A DNA stretch of 64,000 nt. Source: Roseburia sp. Lineage in GTDB: Bacteria; Bacillota; Clostridia; Oscillospirales; Ruminococcaceae. Shown piece after piece: positions 1,171 through 63,020 of the stretch; the stretch's first letter is position 1; every line of letters starts with the position of its first letter. Location: NCBI GenBank assembly GCA_023666265.1, contig JAMPCH010000004.1:1-64000 (forward strand). The letters run 5' to 3'. Both the position numbers and the translations under genes were made by a program. A model generated the notes under the pieces. It was not told the DNA's origin and searched no databases. It was given only the letters and a program-made list of their open reading frames with translations.

Positions 1171-2700
1171 ATGAAGATGACAAAGCTTCTTGCAAGTGGT
1201 GTTGCGGCTTCTTTAGCGGCGACTTCTCTTGTAGCGGTGGCTTCGGCCGCCGATCGCACGTTTGATATGGCTGTATCTTACGGCGAAATCATCGTAAAGT
1301 CCGAGGGCGGTATTGAACTCGGTCAGGAATGGAATCTCTCTCAAGCGGATATTGACGCGGGTAAGACCCTCGGTATCACTAGCAACGAGACCATCAAGCT
1401 TAAGGTTTCCAGCGATTTTGACACCGTAGATTATCAAGGCGTAACCCTTCAGGTTACCGGCGTTAAGGGTACGAGATCCAGCTCTTCGAAGACTTATACC
1501 TACATTTTCGATGACAAGGGCGACGGAAACTACGAATTAGAAGTATACGGTGGTGATACCGCTGCTGCTGACAAGTTCCTTCCTTCTCAGTTTGTTGAGA
1601 TCACGAAGGTTGCGCTCAGCATCAAGGGTACGCATAAGGAAACCGATCAGAGCTACTACAACAAGCTCGGCGACAGCGAATGGGGTTACTGGAATTCCGG
1701 TACTACCATTGAGGGTGGCAAAACCGGTATTGCGGCGGTTATCAACTCGATCGGCCTTTGGGGCGCTAACTACGACTCCAAGTCGATCAAGAATGACTAT
1801 GCGTTCATGCCTTTAGCGGTAGGTAACGGTAGCGCGAATACCTTTATGAGACATGACCTTCAGATTCTCTCTTATGCTGACGCTAAGTACGCTCAGAACA
1901 TCAACGGTACCGATAACAACCAGTCTTATACCGAGGACGGCTATAACAAGGGTACTGTTCCGGTACAGTTCGCGGGTCTTGCTTCTCAGGTTGGCGACTT
2001 CTTTAACAAGCAGACCAACGGTACGATCACCTTCAAGTTCACGACCGCTTCTGCGGCGACCGGCGATACTTGGTTAAACGGTGGTGTTCCTTCGACTCAA
2101 GTAGGTCTTAAGAACGCGTTAGGTAACGCGACCCCGAACGATTTCGTTCTCGCGTTCAACTACGATCAGACCGGTTCGCTCCAGGCTGTTGCCGAAGTAA
2201 AGGCTGATACCGGCGAGGTTGAATTTGACATCGACGATGTTCTCGACGCGTTAGACGGCAGAACGATCGGTGTTATCGACAACATCTACTACGGCTTAAA
2301 CAAGGGCGTATATTATGATGACATCAAGGCTACCGGTCTTAAGGTAGAATCGATCACCCTCTCCTACGACGAGGATGACGACGCGAACAGCGACATCGAA
2401 GAGCCCGACGATGACGACGAGCCGATCGATGACGATGACGATGACGAGTCCGACGATGTTGACGACGACGATGATGTTGACGATGATGTTAACGTTGACG
2501 ACGACGATGATGATGACGACGATGTTGACGATGACGTAACGCCTGTTGACGACGACGAGCCTCAGGGTAATGCGGGTGGTACGACCAACACTGTTGTTGA
2601 TCCCGCTGACGACGGCAACCCGCCTACCGGCGTAGCTCTCGCGGTTGTTCCTGCGATGATCGCTGCTGTTGCGGTAGTTGTATCCAAGAAGAGAAAGTAA
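1171..2700 (+). CDS. Sortase-anchored surface protein with Asp-rich C-terminal region
   Basis: The start at 1171 is chosen because TTGGAGGA lies 10 bases upstream and a typical signal peptide follows (MKMTKLLASGVAASLAA...ASAA). The protein has 509 residues. Residues about 30-410 form an unrecognised extracellular region. Residues about 410-475 are almost entirely Asp with some Glu and Val. The C-terminus has a sorting-type signal, NPPTG, followed by a hydrophobic helix and KKRK. This resembles the N/S-P-x-T-G sorting signals of ruminococci, and a related SPDTG signal ends the protein at 45186-46022. The acidic stretch could bind divalent cations or act as a charged spacer; its role is inferred. 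Flanking DNA on both sides carries related toxin/antisense modules in opposite orientation. Confidence 0.8.
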   Translation: MKMTKLLASGVAASLAATSLVAVASAADRTFDMAVSYGEIIVKSEGGIELGQEWNLSQADIDAGKTLGITSNETIKLKVSSDFDTVDYQGVTLQVTGVKGTRSSSSKTYTYIFDDKGDGNYELEVYGGDTAAADKFLPSQFVEITKVALSIKGTHKETDQSYYNKLGDSEWGYWNSGTTIEGGKTGIAAVINSIGLWGANYDSKSIKNDYAFMPLAVGNGSANTFMRHDLQILSYADAKYAQNINGTDNNQSYTEDGYNKGTVPVQFAGLASQVGDFFNKQTNGTITFKFTTASAATGDTWLNGGVPSTQVGLKNALGNATPNDFVLAFNYDQTGSLQAVAEVKADTGEVEFDIDDVLDALDGRTIGVIDNIYYGLNKGVYYDDIKATGLKVESITLSYDEDDDANSDIEEPDDDDEPIDDDDDDESDDVDDDDDVDDDVNVDDDDDDDDDVDDDVTPVDDDEPQGNAGGTTNTVVDPADDGNPPTGVALAVVPAMIAAVAVVVSKKRK

Positions 2701-2961: not shown

Positions 2962-3048
2962 GATAAAGGTGATTGTCTCCATGTCGCAAATTTCTTATCG
3001 ACAAAGACAAGACGAACGTCCGACCGGGGGGGCTCGGACGTTCGCTTT
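2962..3048 (+). ncRNA. Antisense RNA of toxin B
   Basis: Promoter TTGACA (2927-2932) and TATAAT (2950-2955), 17-bp spacer. The transcript converges on toxin B and ends in a hairpin with arms 3013-3023 and 3034-3044 followed by T-rich sequence. Confidence 0.7.
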
Positions 3049-3083
3049 TTATTTATCCGTGGATAAATAAATGTCGGTTTTTC

Positions 3084-3170
3084 TTACCGATCTCTCTTTA
3101 TGTAGTCCGTGATGTAGTTGCCTACAACACTCGCCGCAACGGAGAGAATAAAGGTGATTATAACCTCCAT
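3084..3170 (-). CDS. 28-residue hydrophobic peptide, candidate type I toxin (copy B)
   Basis: MEVIITFILSVAASVVG and then a tail ending DYIKRDR, paralogous to copy A. The ribosome site AAAGGAGGTGAG lies upstream. The minus-strand promoter has TTGACA (3238-3233) and TATAAT (3215-3210) with 17-bp spacing. One transmembrane helix is predicted by eye. A convergent antisense RNA (2962-3048) covers the 3' end of its message. Confidence 0.75.
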   Translation of the reverse strand: MEVIITFILSVAASVVGNYITDYIKRDR

Positions 3171-3209
3171 ATCGCTCACCTCCTTTCCGACGGAGGAGCC
3201 GACACGTAT

Positions 3210-3238
3210 ATTATACCATAGCTTTCCTTTTTTGTCAA
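3210..3238 (-). promoter_or_regulatory. Consensus promoter of toxin B
   Basis: TTGACA (3238-3233), 17-bp spacer, TATAAT (3215-3210), read on the minus strand. Confidence 0.85.
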
Positions 3239-3267
3239 TATTTGACACATTGACACGATCAATAAAC

Positions 3268-3290
3268 CCCCGAGCCGCGCTCGGGAGTTC
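3268..3290. terminator. Hairpin between toxin modules B and C
   Basis: AACCCCCGAGC pairs with GCTCGGGAGTT around a CGC loop. It is near-identical to the hairpin at 3660-3684, showing the module was duplicated together with this boundary. Confidence 0.6.
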
Positions 3291-3355
3291 GTTCTATTTA
3301 TCCGAAATCACAAAAAAGTCTTGACAAAGTAAAATAGATGTGTTACAATAATGTT

Positions 3356-3445
3356 GATAAGAGAAATTGTCTCCATGCTGTAAGTTTCTTACCGGCAAAG
3401 ACAAAGCGAACACCCGAGGTACGACAGTCGGGTGTTCGCTTTTTT
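3356..3445 (+). ncRNA. Antisense RNA of toxin C
   Basis: Promoter TTGACA (3321-3326) and TACAAT (3344-3349), 17-bp spacer. Terminator arms 3406-3417 and 3428-3439 are followed by a T-run. Confidence 0.7.
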
Positions 3446-3478
3446 ATTTATCCGAAGATAAATAAATGCCGGTCTTCC

Positions 3479-3565
3479 TTACCGGTCTCTTCTTATGTAA
3501 TCGGTGATGTAGTTGCCTACAACACTTCCTACAACGGAGAGAATAAGAGAAATCAAGATCTCCAT
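3479..3565 (-). CDS. 28-residue hydrophobic peptide, candidate type I toxin (copy C)
   Basis: MEILISLILSVVGSVVG and a tail ending DYIRRDR. It is the third paralogue, in tandem with copy B. The ribosome site is AAAGGGGGTG, slightly weaker than in A and B. The promoter is at 3633-3605 on the minus strand. Substitutions between the three copies keep the hydrophobic core and basic tail, which suggests selection on the peptide. Confidence 0.75.
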   Translation of the reverse strand: MEILISLILSVVGSVVGNYITDYIRRDR

Positions 3566-3604
3566 ACTGGGCACCCCCTTTCCGACGGAGGAACCGACAA
3601 GTAT

Positions 3605-3633
3605 ATTATACCATAGCTTCCCTTTTTTGTCAA
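3605..3633 (-). promoter_or_regulatory. Consensus promoter of toxin C
   Basis: TTGACA (3633-3628), 17-bp spacer, TATAAT (3610-3605), read on the minus strand. Confidence 0.85.
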
Positions 3634-3659
3634 TATTTGACACATTGACACAATCAATA

Positions 3660-3684
3660 AACCCCCGAGCCACGCTCGGGGGTT
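3660..3684 (-). terminator. Hairpin downstream of the GH130 gene
   Basis: AACCCCCGAGC / GCTCGGGGGTT stem just past the GH130 stop codon. The T-run lies on the plus-strand side, so its direction is uncertain; it separates GH130 from the toxin C promoter. Confidence 0.6.
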
Positions 3685-3710
3685 CGCTTTTTAATAAATT
3701 AAAGTAAAAC

Positions 3711-4718
3711 TCAAACAGACGAATGCTTCTTGATATACTCGACGACCTCGTCGGCGTTACAGAACGCCATCGAGACGCAGGTATCGGCACAGCCGTAATA
3801 GATCGCGATCCGACCCGTGTCCGCGTCACAGAGCGCCGCACAGGGGAAGGTCACGTTTTGGACGTCGCCGACGCACTCGTAAAGCTCGCGCGGGTTGAGG
3901 AGGTATTCCGAACAGCGGTACTTGACGATCCACGGCTTATCGATGTCGAGGATACAAGCGCCGAAGCTGTACACAAAGCCGTTACAGCTCTCGAGTACGC
4001 CGTGGTAGAAGCAGAGCCAGCCCTCGCTCGTCTCAATCGGGATCGGACCCGCGCCGATCTTTTTCGCTTCCCAGCCCTTGAGCGGTCCCATTACGTGGCG
4101 GTGTTCGCCCCAGTACTTCATATCGGGCGACTGAGAGAGATACATATCGCCAAAGGGGGTATGACCCGAGTCGGACGGGCGGCTAAACATCACATACTTC
4201 CCGTTGATCTTACGCGGGAACATGACGCCGTTTCGGTTAAAGGGGAGGAAGGCGTTCTCACACTGGTGAAATTCCTTAAAATCCTTTGTCCAGCCCACGC
4301 CGATCGTCGGCTTCCACCCATAGGCGTTACACCATGTGATCCAAAATCTGTCCTCGATCCAAACGCATCTCGGGTCATAGCCGTACTGCCACGGGTTCGC
4401 CTCCGCCGTCGCGGGGTCGTCGTTGATCCAGTTCACGCGCTCGGGGTCGATCTCCCAGCTGATCCCGTCCTTTGAGAAGCCCGCATGGATCGCCATATTC
4501 CGCTCCTTATCGTCTACGCGAAAGACGCCCGCGAAGTTATAGTCGCCGCTCTTAAAGGGGACGACCGCGCTGTTAAAGATCGAGTTGCTCGTCGGGAGGA
4601 GGTCGCGGGGGATGATCGGGTTCGCGTCATAGCGCCAGATCACGTCTTTACAGCTCGCGGGGCGATCCTGCCACGGCATATTCGGGAGAGAGGGCTGATT
4701 GATGATTTTTACGCTCAT
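3711..4718 (-). CDS. GH130 family beta-1,4-mannooligosaccharide phosphorylase-like enzyme
   Basis: The 335-residue protein matches the five-bladed propeller phosphorylases of GH130, most like the Ruminococcus albus mannooligosaccharide phosphorylase RaMP2 group by recall. GYDPR at residues 113-117 carries the general-acid Asp (D115). Further family blocks are NPII near residue 33, [10 protein letters not shown] and FSRPSD, and GAGPIPI. Such enzymes phosphorolyse beta-1,4-mannosides to mannose-1-phosphate in the cytosol; exact substrate is inferred. GAAAGGAA precedes the ATG. A consensus promoter lies 72 bases upstream and the gene appears to be transcribed alone. Confidence 0.9.
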
Positions 4719-4789
4719 AATATTGTTCCTTTCAACTTCGGATTTCCCTCAAAAGAGGCTGTCTTTGAGGCTTCCATTATTATAGCTAT

Positions 4790-4818
4790 ATTATACCGAA
4801 AAAAAACGCGCCTGTCAA
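4790..4818 (-). promoter_or_regulatory. Promoter of the GH130 gene
   Basis: TTGACA (4818-4813), 17-bp spacer, TATAAT (4795-4790) on the minus strand. Confidence 0.85.
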
Positions 4819-4977
4819 TAGAAGAAAGAAAGAATTTCCAAAATCCTTCCCTAAAATCTTTTTGAGAAGGAGAGTCTCCCCGGGTTACGATCCGGGGTCA
4901 TGGCGGTCATTCTTTTATAAAAATTATGAAAAAATCGCCAAAACTGTAACCGAAAAATGAGAAATCTTGTATTTTAC

Positions 4978-19080: not shown

Positions 19081-19177
19081 CTTTCTATATCCGTAAATGG
19101 TAAAGCCGTCGAAAGGCGGTGACACAAAGCTAAAGGGTCTGTACCCCTATGGGGATGACAGCCAGTTACAGAAGGAG
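19081..19177 (+). ncRNA. c-di-GMP-I riboswitch (GEMM class)
   Basis: The conserved core is present: GGTAAAGCCGTCGAAAGGCG, then ACACAAAGCTAAAGGGTCT, a variable hairpin, and ATGACAGCCAGTTAC. The GAAA tetraloop of P2 (receptor in P3) and both ligand-binding junction strands are recognisable. It sits in the leader of the double-glycine peptide gene, ending about 9 bases before the ATG. The closing helix can be extended by pairing CCTTTCT (19080-19086) with AGAAGG of the ribosome site, so ligand binding may lower translation. The direction of control is inference. Confidence 0.93.
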
Positions 19178-19465: not shown

Positions 19466-21709
19466 ATGAAAATAATATTACAGCATGACGAGCGGGATTG
19501 CGGGGCGGCGTGTCTTGGAATGATTGCGTGGCATTACGGTTTAAGGCTTTCTCTTGAAAAAATGCGCCACCTTACAAAAACCGACAAATCCGGTACAAAT
19601 CTTTACGGATTGACGGACGGGGCTAGACAAATCGGACTAAAAGGCATCGCTCTTTCGGGAAGCGCCGATGACCTAATGAAGGAAATTAAGGAAGGAAAAA
19701 TCAAATTTCCGTTTATCGCGCATATTGTTTCGGAAGAAAATATGCTTCATTTTGTTATCATATATGGGATAAAAAACGAAAAATTTTTGATTGCCGATCC
19801 CGGAAAAGGTCGAAGAAAGCAGAAAACAAAGGACTTTTTTTCTGTCTGGACGGGTAGCGTAGTAGCATTTGAAAAGACAAGCGATTTTAAAAAAGGAAAC
19901 TACGCTACGGGAACTTTAACGAGAACCTTAAAATTGTTACGGAATCAGCGCATAAAATTAGCGTGGATTTTTATTTCTTCCTTAGTTATTGCCTTAATCG
20001 GGATTACCGGGTCGTTTATTTTTGAAATTGCGATTGACGGATTTATCGAAGTCGATGAAGGGACAGAACATAGTGAGGAGGTGCAATATGTTGAAACAGA
20101 GGAGCAAGAAAATGTGCTTGAAAATATATTGGACGATATTATAAGTTACGCTTCGAGCGTAGGGATCAATTCTTTATTTATCGGCTTAATCGGGCTTTAT
20201 TTACTGCAAGCGTCGGTTCAGTTTTTGAGAGGTTGTTTAATTATTTCTGTTTCAAAACAAATTGATATAAAATTGGTTTTAACATATTATAATCATATTA
20301 TGGACTTACCGATTGAAAATATTTTAAAACGTCAAACGGGGGAATATTTATCGAGGTTTTCGGACGCTTCCGTCATAAGAGATACACTATCCGATGTAAT
20401 CTTAACATTATTACTTGATTCCTTAATGGTGATAGCTGCCGGTGTTATTTTATATATGGAAAACAGTACGCTTTTTTTCATTTCCTTGACAATGGTGGGA
20501 TTTTATATGTTAATTGTAATTGTGTTTAGAAAACCATTTAAAAGATCAAACAGGAACGTGATGGAAAATGATGCTATACTTCAAGCGTATTTTAAAGAAA
20601 GTATAGACGGAGCTGAAACGGTAAAGGCGTCAAGAGCAGAAGAAGCGGTTAAGAATACCGCGAAAAAAAAGTTTATGAAATTTATAAGCTCCGCCGTTAA
20701 GTCAAGCGTGCTGTCTGTTTCACAAAATGCGCTATCGGATACGGCGGAAATGATCGGAGTTGTACTGATCTTGTGGATAGGATTTTCCATGGTTATATCG
20801 GGACAAATAACGATAGGTACTCTCATTTCATATTATGCGCTAATGGCTTATTTTTCCGAACCCGTGAAAAATCTAACGGAGCTTCAGCCACAGGTTCAAT
20901 CCGCTTTTGTGGCGATAGAACGTCTTAATGATATTCTTGAACAGGATAAAGAACCCCTTCAAACAAGCTCAGGCATATTTCCGTCAGCCGACAAATGGGA
21001 AATAAGCCATATTGATTTCAGATACGGAAACAGGAGCTTAGTATTAAACGATGTTAATATCTCGTTTTTTAAAGGACAAAAAATCGCGCTGGTCGGCGAA
21101 AGCGGTAGCGGGAAAACCACAATCGCTAAACTTTTATTAGGATTTTACAAACCCGAGCGTGGAACTATAAAAATAGATGATGTCCCTATCGAAGAGCTTA
21201 GTTTAGCGGAATTACGATCCGTTATCGCTTATGTTAAGCAGGAGACTTTTTTGTTCGCGGATACGATAAAAAATAATTTAAGGCTCGGTAATGAGGGGAT
21301 AACCGATGAAGAGATACAAAAAGCTTGTGAGCAAGTAAATATTGATCAATTTATACAATCTTTGCCACTCGGATATGATACGCCGGTAGAAGAAAACGGA
21401 GCAAATTTGTCGGGCGGACAAAAACAACGGTTGGCAATAGCGAGATCGCTTTTAAGAAATCCCAAATTGTTAATTTTAGACGAAGCAACCAGTCATTTGG
21501 ATACGATAACGGAGGATACAGTAAAAAATACAATTTTTGGACTTGCTGATGAGCTGACCTGTATTGTTATCGCCCATAGACTGTCGACTGTCAAAAATTG
21601 TGATTGTATTTATGTAATGAAAAACGGAACGGTGGTTGAACACGGAACACACGACCAGTTAATGGCAAAACACAAGTTCTACTATAATATGTGGCGTTCA
21701 GAAGCATAA
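19466..21709 (+). CDS. Peptidase-containing ABC transporter (C39, bacteriocin/peptide exporter)
   Basis: 747 residues. The N-terminal C39 peptidase has the oxyanion Gln (Q6), catalytic Cys (C12, in DERDCGAAC), His (H95, MLHFVI) and Asp (D111, IADPGKG). The transmembrane domain spans about residues 160-450. It contains an unusual acidic loop between helices 1 and 2 (about residues 200-228). The ATPase has Walker A GESGSGKTT (about 543-551), signature LSGGQKQR and Walker B LLILDEATSHLD. It should cleave the GG leader of the peptide encoded upstream and export it. Codon use is visibly AT-richer than in the flanking pilus and lipoprotein genes, suggesting acquisition. Confidence 0.95.
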   Translation: MKIILQHDERDCGAACLGMIAWHYGLRLSLEKMRHLTKTDKSGTNLYGLTDGARQIGLKGIALSGSADDLMKEIKEGKIKFPFIAHIVSEENMLHFVIIYGIKNEKFLIADPGKGRRKQKTKDFFSVWTGSVVAFEKTSDFKKGNYATGTLTRTLKLLRNQRIKLAWIFISSLVIALIGITGSFIFEIAIDGFIEVDEGTEHSEEVQYVETEEQENVLENILDDIISYASSVGINSLFIGLIGLYLLQASVQFLRGCLIISVSKQIDIKLVLTYYNHIMDLPIENILKRQTGEYLSRFSDASVIRDTLSDVILTLLLDSLMVIAAGVILYMENSTLFFISLTMVGFYMLIVIVFRKPFKRSNRNVMENDAILQAYFKESIDGAETVKASRAEEAVKNTAKKKFMKFISSAVKSSVLSVSQNALSDTAEMIGVVLILWIGFSMVISGQITIGTLISYYALMAYFSEPVKNLTELQPQVQSAFVAIERLNDILEQDKEPLQTSSGIFPSADKWEISHIDFRYGNRSLVLNDVNISFFKGQKIALVGESGSGKTTIAKLLLGFYKPERGTIKIDDVPIEELSLAELRSVIAYVKQETFLFADTIKNNLRLGNEGITDEEIQKACEQVNIDQFIQSLPLGYDTPVEENGANLSGGQKQRLAIARSLLRNPKLLILDEATSHLDTITEDTVKNTIFGLADELTCIVIAHRLSTVKNCDCIYVMKNGTVVEHGTHDQLMAKHKFYYNMWRSEA

Positions 21710-27572: not shown

Positions 27573-27729
27573 GAAAGAAAACGCCCTTCCCCGAGTGATC
27601 GGGGTAGGGCGCATAAGCGGCTGTTTGGCAGGCGTCCCATTCTCCTGCATCTCTCGGGTCACCCCTGTCAAGCCTTCGGCGTGTGGACGGGGACGGATTC
27701 TTCCACCTCAAACAGCTCTTATTATCTTT
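27573..27729 (-). ncRNA. Structured ncRNA of PBECR2 unit 1
   Basis: On the minus strand, TTTACA (27764-27759), 17-bp spacer and TATAAT (27741-27736) give a start near 27729. A closing helix pairs 27709-27716 with 27620-27627. Inside are a GGTGG/CCAC hairpin, conserved blocks CCACACGCCGA and CCGAGAGATGCAGGAGA, and a GCAGG/CCTGC hairpin. An intrinsic terminator (27582-27594 with 27599-27611) ends the RNA. A homologous RNA occupies the same position after the next PBECR2 gene, with compensatory changes. I do not recognise a known RNA family. Confidence 0.78.
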
Positions 27730-27747
27730 ACACTTATTATAACACAT

Positions 27748-28125
27748 TTATTCGGATTTGTAAAGGATTTTTTTGTTTTTTATCAGCCGATTCCATTCCG
27801 ATTCGTTGATTTTCATAAACGTAATGATCGAGTTTTTAAAATCCGAGTTGTCGGCGGGGGTCACAAGCCTTAAAACTGTTTTAAAATATCGATCCCCTTT
27901 GCGAAATGTCTTTAAGAGCAGGGCGGATCTCGGTTTATTCGCCTCAATAATATAATCCGGGTCGGAGACGATCTCTCGCATATAGTGACAGTATTCTTCA
28001 AAATCGTTCGGGTGGTGATCCTTTATATGGCGGATTCGCTCGTTTGTTATAATTACCTCGTCGGTAACAATGCTGTCAGCGACCGCTTTAAATTTTTTGG
28101 TGTCGATTTTTCCGATAAAATACAC
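27748..28125 (-). CDS. PBECR2-like nuclease-fold protein (unit 1)
   Basis: 125 residues with a GTG start at 28125; an ATG two bases upstream is out of frame. The sequence has the PBECR2-type (barnase/EndoU/colicin/RelE superfamily) pattern: FIGKIDTKKFK, SIVTDEVIITNERIRHIK, HHPNDFEEY, DPDYIIEANKP, KNSIITFMKI and the closing NKKILYKSE. Such proteins are predicted RNases, often phage or toxin linked. Its own promoter is at 28186-28159 (16-bp spacer). The last codons contain the -35 box of the downstream ncRNA. Toxic activity is inferred. Confidence 0.75.
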   Translation of the reverse strand: MYFIGKIDTKKFKAVADSIVTDEVIITNERIRHIKDHHPNDFEEYCHYMREIVSDPDYIIEANKPRSALLLKTFRKGDRYFKTVLRLVTPADNSDFKNSIITFMKINESEWNRLIKNKKILYKSE

Positions 28126-28202
28126 ATTTCCGCCCGCCTGACTGTTTCTTTTTCTTCTATTATATCATAATCTCCCGTTTTGTCAACCCGCTTTCTCCTC
28201 AA

Positions 28203-28357
28203 AAAGGAAGCCCCGCCATGACAAAGCACGGCGGGGCTTGATACGCTATTCGGCAGGCGTGGCATGTCTCCTGCATCTCTCGGGATCTCCCCTGTCGTTA
28301 CCATCGGCGTGTGGTTGCCACGAAATTTACCACCTCGAACAGCTATCCTTATCCTAC
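28203..28357 (-). ncRNA. Structured ncRNA of PBECR2 unit 2
   Basis: Promoter TTTACA (28391-28386), 17-bp spacer, TATAAT (28368-28363). The closing helix pairs 28336-28343 with 28245-28252, where a U-A pair of copy 1 has become C-G and another position a G-U pair, supporting the RNA fold. The conserved blocks CCACACGCCGA and CCGAGAGATGCAGGAGA are present. The terminator is 28208-28217 with 28230-28239 plus a T-run. Confidence 0.78.
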
Positions 28358-28374
28358 TTTATATTATAGCGCAT

Positions 28375-28749
28375 TTATTTGGATTTGTAAAGGATTTTTT
28401 TCGTTTTTAAATAACGTCGGTATCTTTTTTTGTTGACCTTTAAAAAGGTCACAACGGAATTTTTAAATTCGGACGGGTCTTTTGAGGTCCTTAACCAAAG
28501 TATGAGCTGATAATTGCCCTCGTCGCGAATATGTTTTAAAATAAAAGCGATGTTTGGATTACCCGACTCTAAGATATAATCCGGGTTTTCGATGATTTGA
28601 GCGGCATACTGAAAATATCTTTCGTAATCGTTTGGATGCCGTTTTTGGATATGCCTCACCCGACGAGGGGTAATAACGACCTCGTCCGTAACAATATCGT
28701 CGTTGACGCATTTATAGATTTTTCTGTCGATCTTACCCACAAATTGCAC
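28375..28749 (-). CDS. PBECR2-like nuclease-fold protein (unit 2)
   Basis: The GTG at 28749 (MQFVGKIDRKIYKC) is preferred because AGGTGG lies 8 bases upstream and the start aligns with unit 1; a GTG at 28761 is possible. 124 residues, clearly paralogous to 27748-28125. Shared blocks are GKID, DIVTDEVVIT, RVRHIQKRHPNDYERY, NPDYILES, KNSVVTFLKV and KTKKILYKSK. The promoter has TTGACA (28811-28806), 17-bp spacer and TATAAT (28788-28783). Gene plus downstream ncRNA form a duplicated unit. Confidence 0.75.
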   Translation of the reverse strand: MQFVGKIDRKIYKCVNDDIVTDEVVITPRRVRHIQKRHPNDYERYFQYAAQIIENPDYILESGNPNIAFILKHIRDEGNYQLILWLRTSKDPSEFKNSVVTFLKVNKKRYRRYLKTKKILYKSK

Positions 28750-28831
28750 GTTGTGATCCACCTATCCGTCCGTTCTTCTTCTATTATACCAACACTTTCC
28801 CGTTTTGTCAACCCGAACCGCAGAAAAAGCG

Positions 28832-28886: not shown

Positions 28887-29189
28887 TCAACTAACATAGA
28901 CGTCTTCACAGTCGTCGGGGACGTCGTGCATCACGCGGTCGAGAACCTCGGCTCTCTTCGCGTTGTTAAAGCGGTCGAGCGTCCCGACAAGATAACCCGT
29001 GATCCGCCGAATACGCTCAAAGGGGCGATCCTCATAGGTGTAAGAGAGGTCGACGTAATCGCCGTCGGCGTTGATCGCCACGGCGAGAAGCTTTTGCGAG
29101 GGCTTATTCTCCCGCCCCCGATTGACATATTCCTGGATCTCTTCGTCGCTGAGATCCGCGCCCGTTACGGTCAGTTGTACGTTTTTCAT
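28887..29189 (-). CDS. Small protein resembling the C-terminal tail of anaerobic ribonucleotide reductase
   Basis: 100 residues. RRITGYLVGTLDRFNNAKRA (about residues 65-84) is like the tail region of class III ribonucleotide reductase NrdD, and stand-alone proteins of this type are common in Clostridia. It lacks the four zinc cysteines and the glycyl-radical loop, so it cannot be a reductase. AAAGGA lies 12 bases before the ATG. Its promoter is weak (TTGCAT 29335-29330, TATAAT 29312-29307). Function unknown. Confidence 0.65.
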   Translation of the reverse strand: MKNVQLTVTGADLSDEEIQEYVNRGRENKPSQKLLAVAINADGDYVDLSYTYEDRPFERIRRITGYLVGTLDRFNNAKRAEVLDRVMHDVPDDCEDVYVS

Positions 29190-62522: not shown

Positions 62523-63020
62523 AAGGACAAGCCCCGTCCGAATTTGAGTGAAAACAATCCTCAAAGGCTGCGGTTTTTCCGAACGACGGGTATTTTCCGA
62601 AAAACAGTTCTTTGAAAATTGAATAGCAAAGCAAACACAACAGTTGCAAGCCGTGGTCACTAAGCCTGTGACCGCGCGAGGATGTTCCTGTTGCCTACCT
62701 ACGAGGTTACTCATTATCCGTGACCACACATTATTTTTGCGCGAGAATAACAGTAACCGAGGAATGTACGAGCGATCAGCCGAAAACCGATAACGCAGTC
62801 GGCGAGTAGTAAAGGAACGAGCGGGAAACGGCTTGTAATATAATGATACTTACCGTGAGGTCTGTCCATAGGAATGGCAGAGGTGAAAGCCCTATGTGCG
62901 GGGTGCGTAACTACCCGCTGTTTGCTTTGAGTGCAGTCTAAAATAAAAACGTCGGGCTGCACAAATCTTTGACCGCGTTCGCTGAACGAGAACGGTAAAA
63001 GACGGCAGCCCGACTTTTTA
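62523..63020 (+). ncRNA. About 500-nt structured noncoding transcript
   Basis: It starts at the promoter above and ends in a strong terminator (GTCGGGCTGC 62951-62960 with GCAGCCCGAC 63005-63014, then T-run). The region 62627-62929 is closed by a perfect 10-bp helix, CAAAGCAAAC with GTTTGCTTTG, and holds several internal hairpins such as GTGGTCAC/GTGACC and GGGTGCGTAACTACCC. No frame in it is supported. It could be an ORF-less group II intron-like RNA or one of the large ornate RNAs of mobile elements; I cannot decide. Confidence 0.5.

Follow-up and report, generated by a model that had tools for sequence, protein, structure and literature searches.

ToxIN (PMC8860590, PMC5772629) pairs an endoribonuclease toxin, ToxN, with a pseudoknotted RNA antitoxin, ToxI, which is a short repeat series cut out by the toxin. 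In ToxIN, CptIN and TenpIN the tandem repeats lie upstream of the toxin gene, with a terminator between. In the AbiF-RCd22 system of Clostridioides difficile a prophage toxin, related to Abi_2 and the Cas13 ancestor, is neutralised via direct binding of a structured non-coding RNA (PMC12373285). In MuF polymorphic toxins the MuF protein of a temperate phage ends in a toxin domain at its C-terminus, and a protective element next to it is kept after toxin swaps; Jamet et al. (2017, PMC5576092) took immunity to be a small protein. The part of Iyer et al. (2017, PMC5512222) used here predicts that PBECR2 and PBECR3 are BECR RNases, describes solo versions and MuF fusions, and proposes packaged effectors acting against host RNA; that part does not mention an RNA partner. 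Here we analyse a 64,000-nucleotide stretch of Roseburia sp. (contig JAMPCH010000004.1, positions 1 to 64,000; the window), in which two PBECR2 genes are each followed by an RNA of the skipping-rope family. It is likely that each unit is a toxin and RNA-antidote module, i.e. that the RNA is a type III-like antitoxin or an immunity RNA for a BECR-fold RNase.

The window proteins fall into the Pfam families described in the cited part of Iyer et al. (PMC5512222), and the RNA partner is what we propose in addition. The locus resembles ToxIN in combining an endoribonuclease toxin (RNase activity being predicted here) with a pseudoknotted RNA. In contrast to the ToxI repeats, the window RNA has a single core of ~97 nt, lies downstream of the gene and is served by a separate promoter; its partner toxin is predicted to be of BECR fold instead of being a ToxN. 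AbiF-RCd22 is the closest proven precedent for the proposed mechanism (PMC12373285), although its toxin is of another kind and its RNA family is unrelated to skipping-rope. Unlike the MuF polymorphic toxins (PMC5576092), the window copies are solo; in their MuF-borne relatives the immunity factor would be an RNA and not a small protein.

The original prediction described two tandem minus-strand units of a PBECR2-like gene plus an RNA, with separate promoters for gene and RNA and a terminator behind each RNA, and all of this is borne out. The units are arranged head-to-tail between 28811 and 27573, each with a promoter, a gene of 124-128 residues, a second promoter overlapping the gene end, the RNA core and a terminator (Table 1). 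Both open reading frames (ORFs) are intact and their PF18810 scores exceed the curated cut-off of 27.1 bits. The proteins (125-128 residues) have no N-terminal MuF domain, unlike some relatives. Both RNAs are members of Rfam family RF02924, skipping-rope, with scores above the gathering score of 36.7 bits and alignment to model positions 1-80 of 80. The RNA had been taken as part of a system of no described form; the family itself was thus already known, and the link to a PBECR2 nuclease is newly added here. Skipping-rope was reportedly founded by Weinberg et al. in 2017, and the AbiF-RCd22 RNA motif is said to come from the same survey. Rfam lists RF02924 solely as a small RNA, and a covarying pseudoknot has been reported for it (PMC7779021). 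In an open-licence literature collection that does not include the founding paper we found no functional report on RF02924, skipping-rope or PBECR2 and no paper tying the RNA to any protein. The genome of the window has exactly three skipping-rope RNAs and three PBECR2 genes, paired in 3/3 cases; the third, divergent unit is on another contig (G000:C39).

The pairing of gene and RNA is general. An unbiased sample of PF18810 matches, drawn from 398 genomes at phylum level and 196 at class level, comprises ~30 distinct loci, and in ~27 of them a skipping-rope RNA stands beside the gene. Chance adjacency is negligible, because there are only 34 such RNAs in total across the 398-genome sample. At one locus (G371) an insertion element separates the PBECR2 gene from an intact RNA that is now 1.9 kb off. 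For the subfamily of the window proteins, sampled as 113 loci with 119 domains from viral and genome contigs, the RNA is present for 118/119 domains and starts 5-179 nt, nearly always 27-34 nt, past the stop codon; in the sole exception (L124) DNA is inserted between gene and RNA. A broad alignment (A2) was too divergent for searching contigs. Genetic linkage of toxin and RNA, a feature of type III toxin-antitoxin systems, is seen in both samples. It extends to named plasmids and phages, where the RNA stands beside the gene in 14/14 loci with readable flanks. These belong to four phyla (Bacillota, Fusobacteriota, Spirochaetota and Mycoplasmatota) and include B. subtilis pTA1060, Fusobacterium and Treponema plasmids and the S. 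suis phage phiJH1301-1. The source of the name spbA, given to relatives in Streptococcus suis phages, was not traced. Proteins with a linked RNA cluster together as a single group in a phylogenetic tree (support 77/78). At nine loci (L125, L129, L143, L147, L185, L195, L206, L211 and L212) two tandem skipping-rope RNAs lie behind one toxin gene. In pTA1060 (L243, 5414-5632) the convergent skipping-rope RNA adjoins Bacillus-plasmid RNA (RF01691), another orphan plasmid RNA, and the same is seen in L248.

The RNA fold is well supported by covariation. Among 83 distinct RNA sequences 96.9% of cells in the nested structure are paired, two-sided changes occur at 19/24 pairs and 0/500 shuffles do as well; the alignment was fitted to the structure, but slid controls collapse. 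The first hairpin loop forms a six-pair pseudoknot with the six bases preceding the 3' strand of the last helix (463/468 cells paired, 16 distinct strand combinations, 0/10000 shuffles as good). The two window RNAs had been said to differ in their loops. Differences are indeed present, but part of them are pseudoknot strands that changed in a compensatory manner, from CGUGGC/GCCACG in unit A to CGUCCC/GGGACG in unit B.

The RNA is immediately 3' of the gene and on the same strand at most loci, which would also suit control of the toxin mRNA by a cis element or an antisense RNA, be it type I-like or exerted through the 3' untranslated region. However, the RNA promoter is found in 111/111 distinct junctions, always with a 17-nt spacer and in 104/111 with a TTTACA -35 box, which in most junctions overlaps conserved LYK codons near the toxin C-terminus. 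Gene and RNA are convergent at some loci, pTA1060 among them, and L255 alone has the order promoter-RNA-terminator-toxin, as in ToxIN. With such convergent pairs, and with a terminator between RNA and toxin in the upstream order, the RNA must be an independent transcript. Complementarity around the toxin start is marginal in the two window units, and there is no cognate signal over 56 pairs (p 0.88). Together with the orphan RNAs described below, these results make cis or antisense control highly improbable. A small immunity ORF within the RNA was also rejected: every frame is interrupted in most RNAs and the lengths are not multiples of three.

The original prediction named an RNA widely found without the gene as refuting evidence, and this is partly what is seen: about 40% of the RNAs in one phylum sample, and the majority of those in viral contigs, have no gene beside them. 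Specifically, 15 of the 34 phylum-sample RNAs are beside an intact gene, 6 beside a broken, deleted or separated gene and 13 beside neither, two of these 13 lacking retrieved flanks. In viral contigs the gene accompanies ~17/66 RNA pattern matches; five matches (L054, L058, L087, L096, L101) were discounted as lying inside coding sequence or being chance-like. Several loci capture the loss of the toxin. The RNA regions of L028 and L029 are 99.6% identical and the toxin gene is cleanly absent from L028, while in L008, L017, L023 and L034 the toxin is frameshifted or deleted beside a well-conserved RNA. Together with L016/L045 this makes six cases of an intact RNA with a toxin broken or lost by frameshift, deletion or insertion sequence cut. 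The reverse situation, in which a toxin of this clade is intact but has no RNA, is rare; the asymmetry is as expected for a toxin and its antidote. In L074 an orphan skipping-rope RNA (2361-2412, minus strand) lies 8 nt 3' of an ORF which, together with its upstream neighbour, resembles a split Abi_2-type gene. Orphan RNAs of L013 (1159-2409) and L020 have nucleotidyltransferase, HEPN-like and MazEF-like genes as neighbours, a setting like that of toxin or defence islands.

A ribonucleoprotein effector, whose RNA would direct or switch on cleavage as an activating cofactor or guide, would also be expected to show near-obligate pairing of its protein with a structured RNA that is conserved. For a mere cofactor we would expect the opposite of what is seen in the orphan loci, where RNAs often occur without a toxin and persist when the toxin is broken. 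A guide role had also been offered in the original prediction, but it finds no support, as the RNA has no unpaired spacer that varies: conservation extends to unpaired blocks such as GAGAGAUGCAGGAGA, and most of the variable positions are either paired or part of a single hairpin insertion. We therefore regard a cofactor or guide as unlikely. The other role suggested there, that of a type III-like RNA antitoxin, is strongly supported on comparative grounds by the near-obligate pairing, by the RNA being kept upon toxin decay and by the MuF controls that follow.

About half of the reading frames in the window subfamily reach well upstream of the PBECR2 domain, and in 8/8 long frames scanned there is an N-terminal MuF or Phage_min_cap2 domain. 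As a control, a search with MuF N-termini alone gave 86 related MuF loci. The RNA is present in 6/6 loci with PBECR2, whereas 78/80 loci without PBECR2 have no RNA by model R1 (20 of these 78 are also Rfam-negative). The two exceptions, L340 and L341, are 92% identical to a PBECR2-MuF. In both (2998-4902) the toxin domain has been swapped to DUF6883 plus a 55-residue ORF, with the old RNA left downstream. Polymorphic toxin loci typically hold displaced immunity genes. A regular expression for classic-type RNA was blank even in MuF loci with a known window-type RNA, and its result was not used.

This control bears on two further explanations. Many RNA copies sit behind MuF or minor capsid genes, as they would if the MuF or portal complex bound the RNA as a component of the virion. 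The near-absence of the RNA from related MuF genes without PBECR2, and its pairing with solo genes on MuF-less plasmids and chromosomes, leave very little probability for such a role. Alternatively, the RNA could have a mobile-element role of its own, with the nuclease processing it or being titrated by it, so that adjacency would reflect an enzyme and its substrate. Orphan RNAs occur across many phages with no neighbour family in common, which fits this explanation, but the RNA is missing from the same MuF head genes when they have no PBECR2 domain, and the RNA-linked proteins are a single tree group. An enzyme and substrate relationship is therefore improbable in our view.

If the units are toxin-antidote modules, the protein, a member of the PBECR2/PBECR3 clade, would act as a metal-independent endoribonuclease with a BECR fold. 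The skipping-rope RNA, transcribed from its own strong promoter and folded with the pseudoknot, would bind the nuclease and block its activity, like the RNA antitoxins of type III systems and AbiF-RCd22. RNase activity, toxicity, direct binding and inhibition are the parts of this scheme that we infer. In phages the toxin would form a warhead at the C-terminus of MuF minor head proteins, with the RNA as its immunity factor, and on plasmids and chromosomes the solo pair would work as a toxin-antitoxin module. It is a tentative idea, with chances somewhat below even, that the RNAs give immunity to a polymorphic phage RNase toxin carried in the virion, and that orphan copies found in other phages and in chromosomes act against this toxin as free-standing resistance RNAs. 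If this is true, a polymorphic toxin family has an RNA, and not a protein, as its immunity gene. The toxin-antidote reading itself would give a widespread orphan non-coding RNA family a mechanism and a first testable function, would supply a predicted phage RNase family with its missing partner, would add to RNA-antitoxin systems a toxin fold and an RNA architecture that are both new, and would suggest that an RNA can serve polymorphic phage toxins as immunity gene.

Regarding the protein, an AlphaFold2 model of protein B built from a 47-sequence alignment (predicted local distance difference test score, pLDDT, 91.8) shows a moderate resemblance to RNases of the RelE/BrnT/colicin-E5 type. The top VIA-align matches are RNase toxins: 7vd7 (Z 7.4), BrnT (3u97, Z 6.9) and a contact-dependent inhibition toxin (7m5f, Z 5.9), followed by 3ao9, which is a sequence-specific ribonuclease domain, and by YoeB and RelE, the whole range being Z 4.9-7.4. 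In the 47 sequences H33 is invariant and T102 is at least 90% conserved, and both residues are present in both window proteins. A helix histidine with a C-terminal Ser/Thr is the catalytic pattern of active PBECR domains according to the cited part of Iyer et al. (PMC5512222). A PDB sequence search found nothing and no matching model was found with PADLOC and NCBIfam; phrog_29609 is annotated as function unknown.

Several results weigh against the toxin-antidote reading. The Z values of the structural matches are only moderate, and a Foldseek comparison with the PDB, taken alone, yielded nothing significant. Protein and RNA divergence are not significantly correlated (Mantel test, r 0.21). Two of the ~30 loci in the phylum and class sample, an apparently intact relative (L237) and a borderline PF18810 locus (L047), have no detectable RNA. 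PBECR3 domains embedded in large polyvalent proteins have no RNA beside them, so the RNA link is confined to one clade and does not cover the whole Pfam families. Finally, many RNAs have no adjacent toxin; standalone RNAs are tolerable, since an antitoxin or immunity factor is safe alone, whereas intact clade toxin without RNA is rare.

Table 1. Positions of the two PBECR2 gene and skipping-rope RNA units in the window
Feature	Positions	Strand	Support
Promoter of gene A, TTGACA-17-TATAAT	28783..28811	minus	12/12 consensus match
Gene A, solo PBECR2, 128 residues from listed GTG or 124 from in-frame GTG at 28749	28375..28761	minus	PF18810 E 3.2e-13, 50.4 bits
Promoter of RNA A, TTTACA-17-TATAAT; -35 box within gene A LYK codons	28363..28391	minus	11/12 match
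RNA A, skipping-rope core; pseudoknot strands 28317-28322 and 28258-28263	28245..28343	minus	RF02924 50.5 bits; model R1 104.5 bits
Terminator of RNA A	28208..28239	minus	13-pair stem and T run
Promoter of gene B, TTGACA-16-TATAAT	28159..28186	minus	12/12 consensus match
Gene B, solo PBECR2, 125 residues	27748..28125	minus	PF18810 E 1.2e-15, 58.2 bits; model pLDDT 91.8
Promoter of RNA B, TTTACA-17-TATAAT	27736..27764	minus	11/12 match
RNA B, skipping-rope core; pseudoknot strands 27690-27695 and 27633-27638	27620..27716	minus	RF02924 50.0 bits; model R1 109 bits
Terminator of RNA B, G+C hairpin and T run	27573..27611	minus	sequence read by eye

Other features of the window were noted as well. 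Just upstream of the units there is a 100-residue ORF (28887-29189, minus strand), in which a match to the C-terminus of NRDD covers residues 56-88. A YafQ-type toxin gene (PF15738; 24077-24626, minus strand) has a small upstream ORF resembling an antitoxin. A match to Rfam RF02913, pemK RNA, likewise a structured RNA named for a toxin family, is found at 62840-62897 on the plus strand (40.3 bits). A cyclic di-GMP-I riboswitch (19089-19173, plus strand) lies ~290 nt 5' of a peptidase-containing ATP-binding cassette exporter gene at 19466.
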